Shown here: piece after piece, positions 105 through 7,100 of the stretch
Layout: every line of letters starts with the position of its first letter
Numbering within the stretch: position 1 is the first letter of the stretch
Assembly (NCBI RefSeq): GCF_003970695.1
Contig: NZ_CP034570.1
Location: 3,410,001 to 3,474,000, forward strand
Direction: 5' to 3'
Source: Maribacter sp. MJ134
Lineage (GTDB): Bacteria > Bacteroidota > Bacteroidia > Flavobacteriales > Flavobacteriaceae
DNA length: 64,000 nt
Notes under the pieces: model-generated
The model's database searches: none
Seen by the model: only the letters and a program-made list of their open reading frames with translations
What the model was told of the DNA's origin: nothing
Program-made: the position numbers and the translations under genes

Positions 105-1625
105 TTACTTTTGTTTATTCTCTGCTTTAATTTTTTCTAATAAAACAGAAGCAGGTTGATAATCTTTATGTTTTTTACAAGCGGTTATTTCTTCTTCGCT
201 TAACAGTTTGCCTTCAAATGCTTTTTTAAGAATGCTTTGGCGTAAGGCTTGGGCTTTTTCTAAACTTTCTTTTATGCTTTCTTCTATGTTGTCACAAACC
301 GATAGACGACTTTCAATTTCTTGAACAATTTGATGTTGTTCTTGCTTTGAACATAAAGGATAAGGAAGCTCTTTTATTATACCCAAATTTAGAATATCCA
401 TTGTTGCTCCGTGAGCTTTTAAACTATATAAACTTTTTAAGAAAGCGCTTTCAAAATAGTATTTGAAAAAGATTGAATCATAAAATTTGTTAAGAGAGAT
501 TTTAACCAAGCGAGGATTAATAATTCCGTCTTCACAATCTTTTGGTAAAACCAATACTTTACCAACAGTACCAACTAAAGAAATTAGAATGTCATAAGGT
601 TTTACAGCACAGTTTATTAAAGAATCATATTTTTCTTGATTTACATAATAATAACCAATCTTATGGTTGTTTGCGATTACTTGTTCCTGTCCATAAATCT
701 TATAACCAGATTCTTTGTAAAATTCTTTTTTTAAAGATGAACCAAAAGGGCCAGCTTTCAATGAACTAGCTTCGTGACTTGCAATTTTATCTGCTTTAAC
801 CCAATGCCAATATTTATTTAAAGTTGGTAATTTCTCCAATTCGTCATCAGTTAGACTGATTAATTCTTTTATGAATTTTGGTTTTGCAGGTTTTTTATCA
901 TTTGCTCCTTCGTTTTTCCAAAGTTTAACTGCATCTTTCCATTTAGATAATTCCTGTTCTTGATATTTTTGTCGCTCTTCTTTTATTTGCTCCAACAATT
1001 CATCAGCAGAAGGTAAGCTGGTTTGTTTTTCTCGCCATTCTTTGGTCAATTCTCCCTCAAAAGCCTTTTTTAAAACCGCTTGTCTATAAACAATCAATTG
1101 GTCTTGTGCTTTTTTTAGGTCTGCAATACCACTATCTAAACTGCTAAATAATTCTTCTATTTTTTTGACGATTGCTTTTTGTTCAACTAGAGGTGGTAGT
1201 GGAAATATTATTGGTTTTATTAAACCGAAACTTATAGCTGGCATTGCTGCACCTTTAATTCTTGAAATTATCATTTGATAAAAAATTGGTGACTTTAAAA
1301 AAAAATATAAATAGCGTTTAGAAATGTTTATTTCTGGTATGATTCTAAATATGTTGTTTGCTATAGCTCCTGAAATACCAGAACATACAAATCCAGTTGT
1401 AGCACCATATCGTACCATTGAAATATCACCCTTAGCAACAATATTTATGTCATTTGGTTTATCGATGTAACGAGGTTCATCTTTACCTTGAGTAAAATCA
1501 ATAATTCTTAAAAAACGAACTCTATTTTCAATGTCCTCGGTATATTGTTTTCCTTTCGGCACTTGAACTCCTTGTGAAAATTTACATAATTTTCCTAATT
1601 CAATTTCAACCCAATCTTCTCTCAT
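105..1625 (-). CDS. hsdS: Type I restriction enzyme specificity subunit HsdS
   Basis: DNA-recognition subunit of a type I restriction-modification complex. At 506 residues it has the expected two-fold repeat: a target recognition domain (about 1-150), a helical conserved spacer (about 150-205, with LKKAFEGEL at 185-193), a second recognition domain (about 265-430) and a second helical spacer (about 430-480, repeating LKKAFEGKL near 465). The two LKKAFEG copies mark the pseudo-symmetric helices that set the distance between the two half sites. The start codon overlaps the hsdR stop by one base (TAATG), implying translational coupling, and the stop lies 2 bases before hsdM. The recognition sequence cannot be read from the protein. 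Both recognition domains look intact. Confidence 0.93.
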   Translation of the reverse strand: MREDWVEIELGKLCKFSQGVQVPKGKQYTEDIENRVRFLRIIDFTQGKDEPRYIDKPNDINIVAKGDISMVRYGATTGFVCSGISGAIANNIFRIIPEINISKRYLYFFLKSPIFYQMIISRIKGAAMPAISFGLIKPIIFPLPPLVEQKAIVKKIEELFSSLDSGIADLKKAQDQLIVYRQAVLKKAFEGELTKEWREKQTSLPSADELLEQIKEERQKYQEQELSKWKDAVKLWKNEGANDKKPAKPKFIKELISLTDDELEKLPTLNKYWHWVKADKIASHEASSLKAGPFGSSLKKEFYKESGYKIYGQEQVIANNHKIGYYYVNQEKYDSLINCAVKPYDILISLVGTVGKVLVLPKDCEDGIINPRLVKISLNKFYDSIFFKYYFESAFLKSLYSLKAHGATMDILNLGIIKELPYPLCSKQEQHQIVQEIESRLSVCDNIEESIKESLEKAQALRQSILKKAFEGKLLSEEEITACKKHKDYQPASVLLEKIKAENKQK

Positions 1626-4444
1626 TATGCTGCTAGTACTTCATTGAGTTCGTTAATAATGTCATTCATTTGGTTGCCAAATAATTGATGCATTTTTCCT
1701 TTTCCGCCTTTGGCATCAAAAGGTGTATAATCCAAATCGTCCCAAGCGATATGGTAACTGCTCACTACATGGTCTTTTATCATTCGTAACCAATCTAATT
1801 GTTCTTTTGTAAAGCGGTTGTGTTGTCCTGCGTTTTGCTTAAAAATCCACGTTTTAAAATTGTTTTCAATGGTTTTATCGTAGGCTTTTAATTCACTATC
1901 AATACCACAAGCTCTTCTAATTAAAGATACCAATGCAGTTAATTCGTCTTTAGGCTGTTTGCTCCCTTCGACTCCGCTCAGGGTGACATTTTCGACCTGA
2001 GTATAAGCATCCCAAACGAGATGTGGAGTCAATAAAGGTTTATCCATTCGCAATTTCTCCATCACCTCTTTTATCATTTTGAACGTAATGTCTCTGCGGT
2101 TATAAGGTTGGTTGTAAAAAATGCTCAAGGCTTTAATTTCGTCTTTGTTGGCTTCTAAATATTCGGTAAAGTCTTTTACAATTTCGTTTGCTTTATCTAC
2201 AGAGGTGGTTTCCCATTCGCTTTTTGTAACCGTATCTATGTTTACGCTGTCAATAATTTGTTCGTGTTGTTTACGAACATTATCCAAATAACTATTTAAT
2301 TCTCCATTAAACGTTTTACTTGCTTCTAAAATTAATTGTTCTTGTGCATTCTTTTTTGCGTCTTCAATTAAAGCAGGTGTTTGGTCTTGAACAGGAATTT
2401 TGTCAATCTCAATTTGTGCTTTCGTTTCAATTACATCTTGGTCGAAAGCAGTAATTAATGCTGCCGTCATTTGTTTCAAATTCTTACCACCAGAAAATTC
2501 CAATAATCTATCTTTTTCCTTTTCTGTAATTTGTTTCTCTAAACGAATTAATCGGTTTGCTAAAGACAAAAACAAATCTTCGTCTGCAACACCCATTGTT
2601 ACAGCTCCTAATAAATCTTTCATAGGAACAGAAGGTTTACGTTCTAAAGGTCTGCTGTCCGTTTTTTTAGATTTGGTGGCACCAACAGCATCTACAATAA
2701 CGAAATGTGTTTTGGTTTTGGCTGTTTTTGTTACTAATTGTAAAGAATCACTATTGATAGTTCGTGTTCCACGACCTTTCATTTGTTCAAAATAGTTAAT
2801 ACTTTTTACATCTCGCATAAACAATAAAACCTCTAAAGGTTTTACGTCTGTTCCTGTTGCAATCATATCAACTGTAACTGCAATTCTTGGATAATACGAA
2901 TTTCTAAAACGATTCAATACCGATTTTGGGTCTTCCTCAATTTTGTAAGTTACTTTTTTACAGAAGTCATTTCCTTCATCAAATTCTTCTCTAATGATTT
3001 TTATAATATCGTCTGCGTGACTATCTGTTTTTGCAAACACTAACGTTTTTGGTACTTCGTAATCTCCATTTTCGTCAATACGATTTGGATAAATAGTCGT
3101 TTTTAATGCTTTTTTATATTCGCGAATTATATTTCTAATTTGACTTGGATTGACTACTTTTTTATCTAAATCGTTGCGTTTGTACTCGGTGTCTTCATCT
3201 TCTTGTTGCCAACGTTTTTTACGAGTTAGTTTATCTCGTCTGTCAACAAACCAACCTGCTTTTATGATTTCACCTTTTTGAGAAATCTCCGTTTCAATCG
3301 TATACACATCATAAGGCACATTTACACCATCTGTTACCGATTCTTCGTATGTGTATTGACTAACAACGTTTTCATTAAAAAAACCGAAGGTTCTTTTATC
3401 TGGTGTTGCCGTTAAACCAATTAAAAAAGCATCAAAATAATCTAGTACTTGTTTCCATAAATTATAAATGGAACGGTGCGCTTCGTCAATTACGATAAAA
3501 TCAAATTGCTCAATGGGTACTTTTGGTGTGTACTCAACAGGAACAGCTTTGTTTTTGGACATTTTATTTTGAAGCCATGAGTTTTCATTAGGGTTTTCAA
3601 GTTCTGCACTTTCGTCCAGTTCTTCTCCTTTTAGAATAGCGTAGAGGCGTTGTATTGTTGAAATACACACTTGACTATCTGAAGCAATATAACTTGATGA
3701 TAAACGCTGAACATTGTAAAGTTCTGTGAATTTTCTATTGTCATCATTTGGCTGAAAGGTCATAAACTCTTGCTCTGCTTGTTCGCCAAGGTTTTTGGTG
3801 TCAACCAAAAACAAAATACGTTTTGCATCAGCGTGTTTTAGCAAACGATACACAAAAGTTGCTGCTGTAAATGTTTTTCCAGCACCAGTTGCCATTTGAA
3901 TTAAGGCTTTTGGTCTGTTTTTTTTGAAAGAATGTTCCAAATTATTAATCGCAACAATTTGAGCAGGACGAAGTCCAGTTTCATCTAATGCAGGAATTGA
4001 CAACAATCTTTCTCGAAGACTTTTTTCTTTTTTTAACCATTCTGCAATTGTTTCTGGTTTATGAAAACTAAAAACATTTCTACCTCTTGGTTTTGGGTCT
4101 CGATAATCTGTAAAACGTGTTATTGTTCCTGTGCTTTCATAAACAAAAGGCAAAGGGTCATTATTTAAATATTTTAGTTTTGCGTTGGCATAATTTGAAG
4201 ATTGTTCCTCAACAACTGTAAGTCTGTGACCTTCGTCCTCACGTTTTGCTTCTATAATTCCGACAGGTTTTCGGTCTACGAACAGAACATAATCGGCAGG
4301 TCCAACATCTGTTTGGTATTCACGAACAGCAATTCCCTTTCCAGTAGATAAGTCAACTTTCCTTTTCGACTGAACTAACCATCCAGCTTCACGTAGCATT
4401 TCGTCAATTTTATCACGTGCTATTTGTTCTGGATTTTGGTTCAA
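1625..4444 (-). CDS. hsdR: Type I restriction endonuclease subunit HsdR (EcoEI-like)
   Basis: Motor and nuclease subunit of the type I system, 939 residues. The N-terminal nuclease fold shows the PD-(D/E)xK residues (D51, then E65-A-K67 in IIEAKRE). A superfamily 2 helicase follows, with Walker A ATGAGKT at 185-191, the DEAH box (VIDEAHRS) near 318 and GLTATP shortly after. The C-terminal part matches the EcoEI-type R subunit that contacts the methylase. It is first in the operon. Near residues 815-825 the coding sequence contains an in-frame 24-base copy (1964-1987) of the repeat that fills 4581-6347, encoding VTLSGVEG; this segment looks inserted because the residues on either side read as normal family sequence. 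Whether the insert leaves the enzyme active is unknown. No stop or frameshift is visible inside hsdR. Confidence 0.93.
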   Translation of the reverse strand: MNQNPEQIARDKIDEMLREAGWLVQSKRKVDLSTGKGIAVREYQTDVGPADYVLFVDRKPVGIIEAKREDEGHRLTVVEEQSSNYANAKLKYLNNDPLPFVYESTGTITRFTDYRDPKPRGRNVFSFHKPETIAEWLKKEKSLRERLLSIPALDETGLRPAQIVAINNLEHSFKKNRPKALIQMATGAGKTFTAATFVYRLLKHADAKRILFLVDTKNLGEQAEQEFMTFQPNDDNRKFTELYNVQRLSSSYIASDSQVCISTIQRLYAILKGEELDESAELENPNENSWLQNKMSKNKAVPVEYTPKVPIEQFDFIVIDEAHRSIYNLWKQVLDYFDAFLIGLTATPDKRTFGFFNENVVSQYTYEESVTDGVNVPYDVYTIETEISQKGEIIKAGWFVDRRDKLTRKKRWQQEDEDTEYKRNDLDKKVVNPSQIRNIIREYKKALKTTIYPNRIDENGDYEVPKTLVFAKTDSHADDIIKIIREEFDEGNDFCKKVTYKIEEDPKSVLNRFRNSYYPRIAVTVDMIATGTDVKPLEVLLFMRDVKSINYFEQMKGRGTRTINSDSLQLVTKTAKTKTHFVIVDAVGATKSKKTDSRPLERKPSVPMKDLLGAVTMGVADEDLFLSLANRLIRLEKQITEKEKDRLLEFSGGKNLKQMTAALITAFDQDVIETKAQIEIDKIPVQDQTPALIEDAKKNAQEQLILEASKTFNGELNSYLDNVRKQHEQIIDSVNIDTVTKSEWETTSVDKANEIVKDFTEYLEANKDEIKALSIFYNQPYNRRDITFKMIKEVMEKLRMDKPLLTPHLVWDAYTQVENVTLSGVEGSKQPKDELTALVSLIRRACGIDSELKAYDKTIENNFKTWIFKQNAGQHNRFTKEQLDWLRMIKDHVVSSYHIAWDDLDYTPFDAKGGKGKMHQLFGNQMNDIINELNEVLAA
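1964..1987. repeat. Solo copy of the CTTCGACTCCGCTCAG repeat inside hsdR
   Basis: The bases at 1966-1981 are identical to the repeat core found at 5028-5043, 5149-5164, 5777-5792 and 5917-5932. The flanking CCC and GGGTGAC form the terminal CCCT/AGGG and GTGAC parts of the element. It is in frame in hsdR and contributes codons for V-T-L-S-G-V-E-G. Identity over 16 or more bases to a repeat only 3 kb away is seen directly; insertion is inferred. Confidence 0.8.
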
Positions 4445-4580
4445 CTTGTAAAATCTTTTGTGGAGGAGTTAATGGTACCACCAAAATAAGGCTTCAACTT
4501 CGCATTAAAAAGGGCATTTACGTAATTTTTAAGGATTTCCTTACAAAAAGAGGTTTTAGTTTAAAGTTTGCGTTATTTCA
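4445..4580. other. Intergenic stretch upstream of hsdR
   Basis: This stretch separates hsdR from the repeat field and must hold the promoter of the hsdR-hsdS-hsdM operon on the minus strand. I see no full TAnnTTTG/TTG pair in it and no ORF worth calling. The homology to the repeat units begins abruptly at 4579-4581. Confidence 0.4.
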
Positions 4581-5335
4581 GTTCGAGTGACGCCCTGAAA
4601 GAGACGTTGTATCGAGACTTCGGGAGAGAACCCTTTAGTTCACATGAGCTTCTCGATACTAATTTCCTCGTGCCTCGAAAATTCACTCGAAGTGACAATA
4701 GGTTTTAGAAGAGAGTTCAGTGACAATAGAGCTATTGAGGACATTGTAATATGTAAGCTTCTCGATACATTTTCACTTCCGCTCAGTGACCACTCACAAA
4801 ATTCACTCGAAGTGACATCTCGCTTTTCTTTCTGTCTGTTCGAGTGGCGCCTTGTAAGAGGCGTTGTTCCCGAGACTTCGGGAGAGAACCCTTTAGTGCA
4901 CATGAGCTTCTCGATACTAATTTCCTCGTGCCTCGTAAATTCACTCGAAGTGACAATAGGTTTTAGAAGAGAGTTCAGTGAAAATAGAGCTATTGAGGAC
5001 ATTGTAATATGTAAGCTTCTCGATACCCTTCGACTCCGCTCAGTGACCACTCACAAAATTCACTCGAAGTGACATCTCGTTTTTCTCTTCTGTCAGTTCG
5101 AGTGGCGCCCTGGAAGCGGCGTTGTTCCCGAGACTTCGGGAGAGAACCCTTCGACTCCGCTCAGGGCATCGCTCTTTGGAACATTTAAGCTTCTCGATAC
5201 CAATTTCCTCGTACCTCTTAAATTCACTCGAAGTGACAATAGGTTTTAGAAGAGAGTTCAGTTACAAATAAGCTTTTCTTTACTCCCGAAGCTTCGGGAT
5301 TGCTCCCTGAGGTGAAAAAACCACTCGAAGTGACA
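4581..5335. repeat. Left repeat field: nested palindromic repeat in about 258-bp tandem units
   Basis: Left-end motif GTTCGAGTG occurs at 4581-4589, 4838-4846 and 5096-5104. Right-end motif CACTCGAAGTGACA occurs at 4684-4697, 4804-4817, 4942-4955, 5061-5074, 5225-5238 and 5322-5335. The two motifs are near-perfect inverted complements. The distances 4581 to 4838, 4838 to 5096, 4684 to 4942 and 4804 to 5061 are 257-258 bp, so the field is a tandem array of two full periods and a diverged third. Inside the units are smaller inverted pairs (ATCGAGA/TCTCGAT), short palindromes such as CCCGAGACTTCGGG and CCCGAAGCTTCGGG, and the core CTTCGACTCCGCTCAG (5028-5043, 5149-5164). ORFs across the field are translations of the repeat on either strand and show no protein family. 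Confidence 0.92.
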
Positions 5336-5354
5336 ATCAGGTTTACTAAAATAC

Positions 5355-5648
5355 TTATCGGTTAAATTTTTTCTTTGCAAGATTGGGAAGACGTTCAAAC
5401 TCACCTTGAATTAATGCTTCTTTTTTCGCTCTTGACCATTTTTTGATTTGTTTCTCGGTCTCAATAGCTTGTTGAGGTTCGGTAAATTCGCAATAGAAAA
5501 CCAATTGAACTGGTCTTCTAGAAGAGGTGTAACTGTCCTTATACTTTCCGTTTTGATGTGATTCCACTCGTTCGCTTAAATCTGATGTTATTCCAGTGTA
5601 ATAGCTATCATCCGAACATTTTAAAAGGTAAACGTAAAATATTTTCAT
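5355..5648 (-). CDS. Single-domain GIY-YIG endonuclease embedded in repeats
   Basis: A 97-residue protein of the UPF0213/YhbQ type of stand-alone GIY-YIG nucleases. Visible family features are the first strand with Y-V-Y-L at 5-8, the Y-T-G of the second motif half at 17-19, Arg27 and His31 on the following helix (SERVESH), and the metal-binding Glu65 in the helix TEKQIKKWSRAKKEALI. The C-terminus is Lys-rich. All catalytic positions appear present, so the protein should be an active metal-dependent nuclease. The gene is a single cistron bounded 19 bases downstream and 40 bases upstream by copies of the palindromic repeat. It has no other neighbour within 900 bp on the left or 700 bp on the right. 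The family has no firmly assigned cellular role; repeat mobilisation or maintenance is an inference from location only. Confidence 0.9.
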   Translation of the reverse strand: MKIFYVYLLKCSDDSYYTGITSDLSERVESHQNGKYKDSYTSSRRPVQLVFYCEFTEPQQAIETEKQIKKWSRAKKEALIQGEFERLPNLAKKKFNR

Positions 5649-5688
5649 GATGTTAAAATAGCAAAATTGTATTGAATGGATATGCGTT

Positions 5689-5843
5689 GTCAGTTCGAGT
5701 GATTTGTTGGCTGAGCGGAGTCGAAGACATCAAATAGTATCGAGAACGCAATGGAACACAAAAGCTTCTCGATACCCTTCGACTCCGCTCAGGACAGGCA
5801 TTTTGAACTTCGCTATCGCTTCGTTGAAAACACTCGAAGTGAC
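5689..5843. repeat. Best-preserved full repeat unit, nested inverted arms
   Basis: From outside inwards, GTCAGTTCGAGTG (5689-5701) pairs with CACTCGAAGTGAC (5831-5843, 12 of 13). CTGAGCGGAGTCGAAG (5711-5726) pairs perfectly with CTTCGACTCCGCTCAG (5777-5792). GTATCGAGAA (5737-5746) pairs perfectly with TTCTCGATAC (5766-5775), leaving a loop of about 19 bases. The single strand could therefore fold into one long interrupted hairpin. A degenerate relative lies at 6216-6347, where the middle arm has changed to CTGAGCGTAGTCGAGG and its partner is lost. Confidence 0.88.
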
Positions 5844-6347
5844 AATAGGTTTTAGAAGAGAGTTCAGTGACAATAGAGCTATTGAGGAAATTGTAATATG
5901 TAAGCTTCTCGATACCCTTCGACTCCGCTCAGTGACCGCTCACAAAATTCACTCGAAGTGACATCTTGTTTTTCTTTTTGTCAGTTCGAGTGGCGCCCTG
6001 TAAGAGGCATTGTTCCCGAGACTTCGGGGGAGAACCCTTTAGTGCACATGAGTTTCTCGATACTAATTTCCTCGTGCCTCGAAAATTCACTCGAAGTGAC
6101 AATAGGTTTTAGAAGAGAGTTCAGTGACAAATAAGCTTTTCTTTACTCCCGAAGCTTCGGGATCGCTCCCTGTGGTGAAAAAACCACTCGAAGTGACATC
6201 TCGTTTTTCTCTTCTGTCAGTTCGAGTGATTTGATGGCTGAGCGTAGTCGAGGACAGCAAATAGTATCGAGAACGCAATGGAACACGAATGCTTCTCGAT
6301 ACATTTTCAACTTCGCTATCGCTTCGTTGAAAACACTCGAAGTGACA
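5689..6347. repeat. Right repeat field: same palindromic repeat family on the other side of the GIY-YIG gene
   Basis: Left-end motif GTTCGAGTG occurs at 5693-5701, 5984-5992 and 6220-6228. Right-end motif CACTCGAAGTGACA occurs at 5831-5844, 5950-5963, 6088-6101, 6185-6198 and 6334-6347. Spacings of 119, 138 and 97 between consecutive right ends (5831, 5950, 6088, 6185) mirror spacings of 120, 138, 119 and 97 in the left field, so blocks are shared between the two sides. ORFs of 60-110 codons in this stretch are translations of the repeat and are not called. Confidence 0.92.
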
Positions 6348-6395
6348 TATATATTATGTGTCCGATACCTGAGCGGAACCGAATGCAAAGCAATC

Positions 6396-7100
6396 CTACC
6401 GCAGACTCCAAATCTCGTAAATGGGTTTTCCTTTGCTGCTAAGACCGGAATGGTGCCAGTCCCCATCTTTAAGCTCGTAGTTAAATTCTAGGCTGGCGCC
6501 TACGCGTGCATTGTCTCGGGAGAAAAATTCTATGTGCTCGGTATACTTGCCATCTACTGTGGTGTACGTGCCGCCACCGGTGCCCATAAATTCCTTGGTT
6601 TCGGTATTGTAGGCAATCCATTGAAAGCGGGTTCCGGATAGTATTTTCATGGTTTTTCTGGGACGGTCCGTATTTCGTTTTTGGATTTCTCCGTCGCGCA
6701 TACGCCCGGAAATCAACCAGGCACCGGCTAAGGCACCGGGAGTGCCGTTATCAATTCGTTTCCATACGGTATTCGAGTCTTTTAGTTTTAGTTCGTCCGC
6801 CGTTAGCTCAATTTCAAAGCTACTCGTCGTACCTACACGTTCGGGTTTTTCAAAATGGAACTCCACCGTTTCGGTAAGGGAATTATCCGCCAAGGACCAC
6901 GAACCACCATTGGTGCCTACAAAGTCACCCGTCTTGGCATCATAGGAAGTAGCTACTTGGTGCGATGCCGAAAAGATGACCACGTTTCTTAGCGTGCGAC
7001 CGTCCTTTTCCATAGTGGCTTCCCAGGCGCCAACTAAGGACTGGGTATAGCCCAAACTACAGGTGAACAATACAAGAAAATAACCGGCAAATTTTTTCAT
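6396..7100 (-). CDS. Secreted protein of two lipocalin-like repeats
   Basis: A 234-residue protein with a cleavable signal peptide (MKKFAGYFLVLFTCSLGYTQ). The mature part is an internal duplication: residues about 21-115 and 125-234 each run from a G-A-W motif (LVGAWEA, LAGAWLI) through F-V/M-G-T-x-G-G (FVGTNGGSW, FMGTGGGTY), then T-E-x-(V/I)-E-F and R-V-G. This resembles the lipocalin-like, DUF4488-type small beta-barrels of Bacteroidota; that assignment is tentative and no ligand can be named. It stands alone between the repeat field, which ends about 50 bases past its stop, and a terminator upstream. Confidence 0.75.
   Translation of the reverse strand: MKKFAGYFLVLFTCSLGYTQSLVGAWEATMEKDGRTLRNVVIFSASHQVATSYDAKTGDFVGTNGGSWSLADNSLTETVEFHFEKPERVGTTSSFEIELTADELKLKDSNTVWKRIDNGTPGALAGAWLISGRMRDGEIQKRNTDRPRKTMKILSGTRFQWIAYNTETKEFMGTGGGTYTTVDGKYTEHIEFFSRDNARVGASLEFNYELKDGDWHHSGLSSKGKPIYEIWSLR

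Follow-up and report, generated by a model that had tools for sequence, protein, structure and literature searches.

Repetitive extragenic palindromes (REPs) of Proteobacteria are served by small nucleases, the REP-associated tyrosine transposases (RAYTs, or TnpA-REP). In these REP-RAYT systems (REPtrons), the nuclease gene lies between REPs, solo and dimeric REPs are dispersed in the genome, each enzyme has its own REP type, a conserved tetranucleotide tag marks the foot of the hairpin, and REPs persist without the enzyme. Passages of one study state that TnpA-REP depends on its GTAG tag and that it cleaves next to the REP, at a dinucleotide (PMC8266576). A second superfamily, the CGTC-tagged REPs, including dRS3 of Neisseria and RPE of Rickettsia, was defined in a survey by Di Nocera, De Gregorio, and Rocco (2013; PMC3733652), sections of which describe an unpaired CGTC, TGTC, or CCTC tag, a short stem that nearly always begins with AT, a CCA tail, and a mostly inverted-dimer arrangement; in those sections, the repeats are said to "apparently lack a dedicated transposase." Here, we describe a locus of Maribacter sp. 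MJ134 that resembles a REPtron but encodes a GIY-YIG nuclease. The locus lies in a stretch of 64,000 nucleotides (the window; bases 3410001 to 3474000 of a 4.02-Mb single-contig genome), in which the gene for a 97-residue nuclease, N1, is set between two fields of palindromic repeats. We estimate a probability of roughly three in four that the locus is a REPtron-like system in which GIY-YIG replaces the RAYT, with N1 as its autonomous part and the palindromes, both flanking and dispersed, as its nonautonomous parts, and that such nucleases are the dedicated enzymes of the CGTC/TGTC REP superfamily.

The initial annotation had reported a lone single-domain GIY-YIG gene between the repeats, and this was confirmed. 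Residues 4 to 76 of the N1 open reading frame (ORF) match the GIY-YIG domain (PF01541; E value of 1.3e-17; 64.2 bits against a cutoff of 22.6), which places N1 in the GIY-YIG superfamily, and no other likely gene lies in the repeat field, as judged from the list of ORFs. The conserved tyrosine, arginine, and glutamate of the GIY-YIG domain are catalytic. In an alignment of 73 of 82 family proteins (85 to 159 residues long), the corresponding Y17 and R27 are conserved in 72 proteins each and E65 in all 73. By sequence, the nearest solved structures are 1zg2 (BH0048; E value of 1.1e-14) and 1ywl (EF2693; E value of 3.2e-8), entries of the UPF0213/YhbQ-YazA proteins that have the same single domain and are named hypothetical proteins. 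NCBIfam returned no family for N1.

Seventeen ends of the form TGTCA(C/G)TTCGAGTG surround N1. The motif counts given previously for positions 4581 to 6347 were exact (11 copies of CACTCGAAGTGACA and 6 of GTTCGAGTG), and neither motif occurs elsewhere in the window on either strand. By eye, each unit has the layout TGTC-A(C/G)TTC-GAG-loop-CGA-GAA(G/C), in which the tag is followed by a short stem, by a variable loop with, in many cases, a second palindrome nested in it, and by the returning stem, and two inverted units with their tags outward form an element of about 120 to 160 bp (Table 1). The two motifs had been described as near-inverted partners; both are indeed present but are better understood as the end variants, TGTCAC and TGTCAG, of tag-outward dimers. 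Because its ends differ by this one base, the element has a left and a right. On the nuclease strand, 9 of the 11 TGTCAC-headed units are followed by TATCGAGAA (8 with TATCGAGAAG and 1 with an altered last base) and 2 are not; by eye, TATCGAGAA reads as the 3' stem of the unit and not as a separate repeat. When folded as single-stranded DNA (ssDNA) and compared with shuffled sequences, two dimers gave the negative z scores listed in Table 1, one single unit folded well (z = -2.2), and another did not (z = 0.2). In two orthologues from other genera (L099 and L100), the gene fills the loop of the dimer and so lies between two inverted REPs, in the order TGTCACTTCGAGTG ... TATCGAGAAG - gene - GGTTCTCGATA (one base off in L099) ... 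CACTCGAACTGACA. Rfam returned nothing close to its cutoff over positions 4400 to 6500. By reasoning, we rejected an integron attC array, since the inverted dimers share a tag and the nuclease is the only gene of the field, and a CRISPR-like array, since the units are palindromic and their spacing is variable.

The likeness to a REP-RAYT pair with a GIY-YIG enzyme in the enzyme's place, first proposed from this locus, holds well beyond the window. We examined 80 named loci, the best 80 of at least 547 GTDB relatives found by two peptide patterns; they were chosen by protein similarity only, but when the query alignment was made, REPs had already been noticed next to four of the five proteins in it. 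The loci span Proteobacteria, Nitrospirae, Planctomycetes, Chloroflexi, Cyanobacteria, Spirochaetes, Patescibacteria, Omnitrophota, Bacteroidetes, and others (many are metagenome bins, and taxon labels are those of the record titles). Under a strict rule (a palindrome tagged with (C/T)GTC or CCTC within 300 bp of the gene), REPs were found on any side of 57 and on both sides of 36 of the 80 GIY-YIG genes, compared with 16 and 0, respectively, of 196 other ORFs at the same loci. Under a loose rule, the counts were 66 and 44 of 80, compared with 11 and 2 for a control with reversed tags, and the density of REPs was 3.86 per kb near the gene, 0.67 at 1 to 4 kb, and 0.30 near the gene for reversed tags. 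A tblastn search of plasmid records found 33 records with a match, and at 9 of 10 loci examined by eye, tagged palindromes lie on both sides of the gene: those of Azospirillum, Rhizobium, Shinella, Sphingobium, Novosphingobium, Spirosoma, Planktothrix, a Neisseria genome, and Sinorhizobium meliloti (with a CCTC tag). At the 10th locus, in R. tumorigenes, the only tagged palindrome lies 179 bp downstream.

The repeats beside these relatives of N1 have the properties described for CGTC-tagged REPs. Among 237 REPs from 90 loci, a CCA tail was present in 90%, 82%, and 82% of those with CGTC, TGTC, and CCTC tags, respectively. Of 78 pairs of neighboring REPs, 48 are oriented with their tags outward, 23 with their tags inward, and 7 in the same direction. 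Most have an unpaired tag and a stem that starts with AT, some having GT or AC instead. Judged from their sequences, the repeats of the relatives thus fit the CGTC-tagged superfamily, and CGTC-type REPs adjoin the GIY-YIG genes of Azospirillum, Rhizobium, Neisseria, Planktothrix, and others. They flank those of A. lipoferum, S. meliloti, and a Neisseria genome, taxa listed as CGTC-positive in PMC3733652. The repeat of the window appears to be an outlying type of the superfamily because its TGTC is followed by AC or AG; its loop is also longer than in the type described there, and the sections cited above do not include it. If the palindromes of the window belong to, or outlie, this superfamily, it would follow that these nucleases are the enzymes that it was thought to lack. 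The locus therefore shares flanking, dispersed, and enzyme-specific REPs with REPtrons, and it differs from them in that the enzyme is a GIY-YIG and not an HUH tyrosine nuclease and in that the tag is (C/T)GTC or CCTC and not GTAG; a search of the genome with PF01797 (Y1_Tnp/RAYT) gave no match at an E value of ≤0.001.

The repeats of the window are dispersed in the genome. Allowing one mismatch, the end motif TGTCASTTCGAGTG has 63 matches in 4.02 Mb and its reversed control has none. These ends form nine clusters: the field itself (17 ends), three clusters about 10 to 18 kb to its left (31 ends), and five distant clusters (15 ends). Likewise, CTTCGACTCCGCTCAG occurs in 21 copies, and its reversed control is absent. 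With 46 of 63 ends outside the field, tandem duplication alone was rejected as the source of the repeats. The solo copy that the initial annotation had placed in hsdR was not borne out, as the REP found there is of another type, TGTCACCCTGAGCGGAGTCGAAG.

We next compared loci within the family Flavobacteriaceae and within the genus. The N1 protein was searched against 120 genomes of 119 genera, 77 of which had a match at an E value of ≤1e-5; cutoffs for clade A were chosen by eye (E value of <1e-37 in the family and ≥68% identity in the genus). Among the 30 best loci, CA(C/G)TTCGAGTG was present in the 1.5-kb flanks of all 14 with ≥64% identity (N1 included) and in none of the 16 others, many of which carry other repeats. 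In the full set of 82 family loci, repeats are concentrated in the 300 bp adjacent to the gene, with mean coverages of 34%, 16%, and 18% in three similarity groups, compared with 0.5 to 1.5% at 2 to 4 kb. Coverage of the flanks by repeated 11-mers reached ≥10% for 46 of 82 GIY-YIG genes but for only 15 of 261 other ORFs, and near intergenic DNA was more covered than far intergenic DNA (P = 7e-9; n = 79, after omission of 3 of the 82 loci with too little far intergenic DNA). Most repeat-bearing loci have heads of the form (T/C)GTCA, three variable bases, and (C/T)GA, for example TGTCAGTTCGAGTG, TGTCAGGCTGAGCG, TGTCAGGTCGAGCG, TGTCATTCTGAACG, and CGTCATTGCGAGG; loci without such heads exist, such as L112 (genome G031) and L132.

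The initial annotation had asked whether dispersed repeats occur together with this nuclease across genomes, and they do. Of the family genomes, 14 of 14 that encode the orthologous nuclease contain the exact motif GTCASTTCGAGTG (median, 11 copies), compared with 38 of 106 that do not encode it (median, 0 copies; P = 4.6e-9), and within the genus, the median was 18.5 copies in 14 genomes with the nuclease versus 4.5 in 22 without it (P = 9e-5). These data bear on whether N1 is instead a housekeeping or domesticated enzyme that controls, trims, or resolves palindromes of other origin, with a copy of its substrate regulating its own gene. The relatives YhbQ of Escherichia coli and YazA of Bacillus subtilis are grouped with the structure-selective Slx1 in a portion of PMC7017083, and orphan REPs that persist without the nuclease would suit such a role; a housekeeping gene, however, would hardly be present in only 14 of 36 genomes of the genus, in varied places and in tandem copies together with its repeats, nor would REPs be expected to be fewer where it is absent. 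We thus consider this role very unlikely.

The initial annotation had also asked whether each nuclease subfamily has its own repeat sequence. Such matching was assessed at the 62 family loci where two or more tagged heads are present, after removal of 2 of 82 proteins with long reading frames and of 18 of the remaining 80 loci with fewer than two tagged 14-mers. Across genomes, protein identity was correlated with head similarity (rho = 0.487; maximum of 999 permutations, 0.228), and 8 or 9 of 9 head bases were shared by 77% of pairs with >60% protein identity versus 7% of pairs with 30 to 40%. Paralogues served as a control for the relatedness of the hosts. Among 31 paralogous nucleases, the REP head was closer to that of the nearest homologue from another genus in 24 cases and to that of the best paralogue in the same genome in 2, with 5 ties. 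As these rows are not independent, we also averaged them by genome; in 15 of 15 genomes that have paralogues, the repeat type went with the clade of the nuclease rather than with the genome. The genome of MJ134 shows this clade-wise matching for N1; its second nuclease, N2 (at 111.6 kb of the genome, with GGTGGCTGAGCGGAGTCGAAGCCAC-like flanking repeats), is one of the 2 exceptions, as most of the repeats beside it are untagged. Chance or hitchhiking, in which REPs settle in the same intergenic space that short dispensable genes occupy, could account for repeats near 15 of 261 and 16 of 196 other ORFs, but it would have to explain why REPs flank both sides of 36 of 80 nuclease genes and of no other ORF, and why repeat type follows nuclease clade in every genome with paralogues; we regard it as extremely improbable.

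Several comparisons between relatives show a nuclease cassette or a REP dimer at a site in one genome and missing from it in another. In the suf operon of A. lipoferum 4B, sufB and sufC are separated by a nuclease gene with one REP dimer on either side, and the two dimers fold with z scores of -9.6 and -10.3. Among the matches listed, 11 other Azospirillum records match both suf flanks (89.8 to 96.9% identity; 64 to 66% query cover). The four relatives, of five retrieved, that we compared in detail have a suf spacer of 55 to 129 bp and no nuclease, and in three of them, the spacer holds no inverted repeat of ≥7 bp. Within the genus of MJ134, 13 of 14 N1-clade loci could be compared (L358, at a contig end, was left out): eight share common flanks, two share other common flanks, and three, including this genome, share none, so that the clade occupies at least five places. 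The gene and its REPs are duplicated in tandem in genomes G421 and G444. At one site, a dimer is shared by G419 and G422 but not by G421, and at another, a multi-REP array in G421 corresponds to one unit in G422, indicating that an array grew where a REP was already in place. In Sinorhizobium and Rhizobium, the nuclease region matches 764 places in 134 plasmid records, part of which are matches to flanking genes. Numbers of PF01541 matches per genome, UvrC-type proteins included, range from 0 to at least 18 among 296 Bacteroidota, as might be expected if many are mobile.

GIY-YIG enzymes of the I-TevI type home; they share with N1 the catalytic superfamily and probably the character of a selfish mobile gene. 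N1 could likewise be an endonuclease that inserts its own gene at REPs spread by another process, which would make the REPs landing sites and not products. A homing enzyme would also track one REP type, orphan REPs without the nuclease occur, and in one of four Azospirillum relatives, the suf site does hold an inverted repeat, although an untagged one. By eye, however, the REPs on either side of the gene are complete units and not the halves of one split REP, and three of the four suf sites lack a palindrome, which makes homing less likely. Homing would also leave unexplained why the number of REPs increases with the presence of the nuclease, and this genome has no RAYT-type enzyme that could have spread them. 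Moreover, we saw no intron, and unlike homing endonucleases of this superfamily, a protein of 97 residues leaves no room for a separate DNA-binding domain, while complete inverted palindromes flank its gene. We therefore view homing as unlikely.

Other observations weigh against the REPtron-like reading. When the loose rule is applied, 14 of the 80 named loci still lack any REP in the 300 bp next to the gene. Among the best-scoring PF01541 matches across Bacteroidota (30 matches, from which 5 clipped loci were dropped), repeat coverage passed near the gene at 8 of 25 loci and far from it at 3 of 25 (P = 0.0014); since only 8 of 25 pass, GIY-YIG genes are not all of this kind. In the family set, 11 of 79 loci also reach 10% coverage in far intergenic DNA. 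In MJ134 itself, a GIY-YIG gene at 355.9 kb has none of these REPs, and the flanks of N2 hold mostly untagged repeats. Orphan repeats occur in 38 of 106 family genomes without the orthologous nuclease, some with 10 to 22 copies: G070 and G093 have 18 and 10 copies, respectively, and no single-domain GIY-YIG protein above the Pfam cutoff (the end motif is also missing from the 2.5 kb surrounding a subthreshold GIY-YIG frame in G070), and G436 has 37 copies and no N1-like match at an E value of ≤1e-15. Conversely, the G031 nuclease (E value of 5.6e-36), next below the clade cutoff, goes with no copy of the motif, and the repeats around it end differently. The untagged inverted repeat in the suf spacer of Azospirillum sp. 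B510 suggests that a palindrome may predate the cassette at that site. Target-site duplications of 2 to 9 nucleotides were sought in 48 dimers, and none was clearly above shuffled sequences (the 3-nucleotide class, one of eight lengths, was at 0.262 versus 0.187, with a standard deviation of 0.029). Base-exact insertion boundaries were not found in Azospirillum, Sinorhizobium, or the genus of N1, because the surrounding spacer is too diverged to fix the insertion ends, though presence and absence are visible in several cases. The initial annotation had named two outcomes that would speak against it, repeats equally abundant in strains without the gene and orthologues mostly without a nearby repeat. 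Both orphan repeats and repeat-less GIY-YIG genes do exist, yet the abundance of repeats is lower without the nuclease. G436, G070, and G093, which are rich in the repeat of the window, are candidates for loss of the enzyme.

Taken with these reservations, a GIY-YIG protein that spreads CGTC/TGTC REPs and itself by RAYT-like logic, with an unrelated fold, is the most likely explanation of the locus. We infer that the nuclease cleaves and moves its REPs. Judging from the anatomy of the repeats, the enzyme would use the (C/T)GTC tag and the stem to recognize its cognate REP dimer, folded as a hairpin or cruciform, and it might cut at or near the tag. Repair or strand annealing could then copy the dimer, or the dimer together with the nuclease gene, to a new place without target-site duplication and could also enlarge arrays in tandem. 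The lack of such duplications and the growth of arrays where copies already exist suggest that copying is driven by repair rather than by DDE-type transposition; a classical DDE-type miniature inverted-repeat transposable element was rejected since there is no target-site duplication of fixed length.

More broadly, bacteria have two big families of small palindromic repeats, and these data suggest that related GIY-YIG enzymes are what moves the one for which a mover has long been missing. On balance, we favor the view that single-domain GIY-YIG nucleases are widespread, selfish enzymes, nonhomologous to RAYTs, that mobilize their cognate REPs and have created and maintain CGTC, TGTC, and CCTC REPs across many phyla (including dRS3 of Neisseria and the repeats of rhizobia), that each reads a short stem sequence, giving a natural recognition code, and that a sister lineage uses pieces of tRNA genes similarly. 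Among titles and the beginnings of abstracts in open PubMed Central, which leaves preprints and subscription journals outside the scope, we found no paper that joins GIY-YIG proteins with REPs. By key terms, RepRanger (2025; PMC12306157) and a 2018 survey of HUH enzymes (PMC6006769) mention CGTC in a reference only, a paper on Bradyrhizobium REPs (PMC5082802) names no nuclease, and three others (PMC10928387, PMC12455944, and PMC11535214) mention GIY-YIG proteins but not REPs. If our reading is right, the question of the missing enzyme of CGTC REPs becomes open to direct testing, the protein having about 100 residues and the substrate 85 bp, and common genes annotated merely as "GIY-YIG nuclease family protein" gain a function. 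Two unrelated nuclease folds would then have converged on one REP-spreading way of life, and the clade-by-clade pairing with differing stems would be a data set on how a minimal nuclease reads DNA hairpins.

Table 1. Coordinates of the repeats and nuclease genes (window positions unless stated otherwise)
Feature	Position	Strand	Remarks
GIY-YIG nuclease N1, single domain, 97 residues	5355..5648	-	Y7, Y17, G19, R27, H31, and E65 nearly invariant among relatives
Left repeat field	4576..5335		9 element ends (6 CACTCGAAGTGACA, 3 GTTCGAGTG)
REP dimer, tags outward	4576..4697		One mismatch in left tag
REP dimer, tags outward	4833..4955		One mismatch in left tag; ssDNA fold z = -3.1
REP dimer, tags outward	5091..5238		
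Tagged end closest to N1 on its 3' side	5322..5335	-	
Right repeat field	5688..6347		8 element ends (5 CACTCGAAGTGACA, 3 GTTCGAGTG)
REP dimer, tags outward	5688..5844		CTGAGCGGAGTCGAAG palindrome nested in loop
REP dimer, tags outward	5979..6101		ssDNA fold z = -2.6
REP dimer, tags outward	6215..6347		
REP of another type in hsdR coding sequence	1963..1988	-	TGTCACCCTGAGCGGAGTCGAAG; TGTCACCCTGAGCG type
GIY-YIG tandem at tRNA-Phe	L037:1041-1889 (genome 3744540-3745388)		

N1 lies between the gene for HsdR, a type I restriction subunit named from its sequence alone (1625 to 4444, minus strand), and another ORF at 6396 to 7100. The REP of the TGTCACCCTGAGCG type within hsdR keeps the reading frame uninterrupted and is translated as TLSGVEGS. 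Another GIY-YIG lineage occurs in tandem at tRNA genes: at tRNA-Phe in this genome (two copies; unit of 370 bp) and, in two other genomes (L344 and L345), at tRNA-Leu (at least five copies; 450 bp) and tRNA-Pro (three copies; 317 bp). Part of the tRNA gene is duplicated in these copies, with a small palindrome inside or beside the duplicated part, and this lineage may represent a tRNA-directed sister system. The repeat field around N1 also contains very short palindromes such as TCCCGAAGCTTCGGGA (for example, at 5284 to 5299 and 6147 to 6162), which the CCCGA...TCGGG palindromes of the tRNA-derived repeats resemble.

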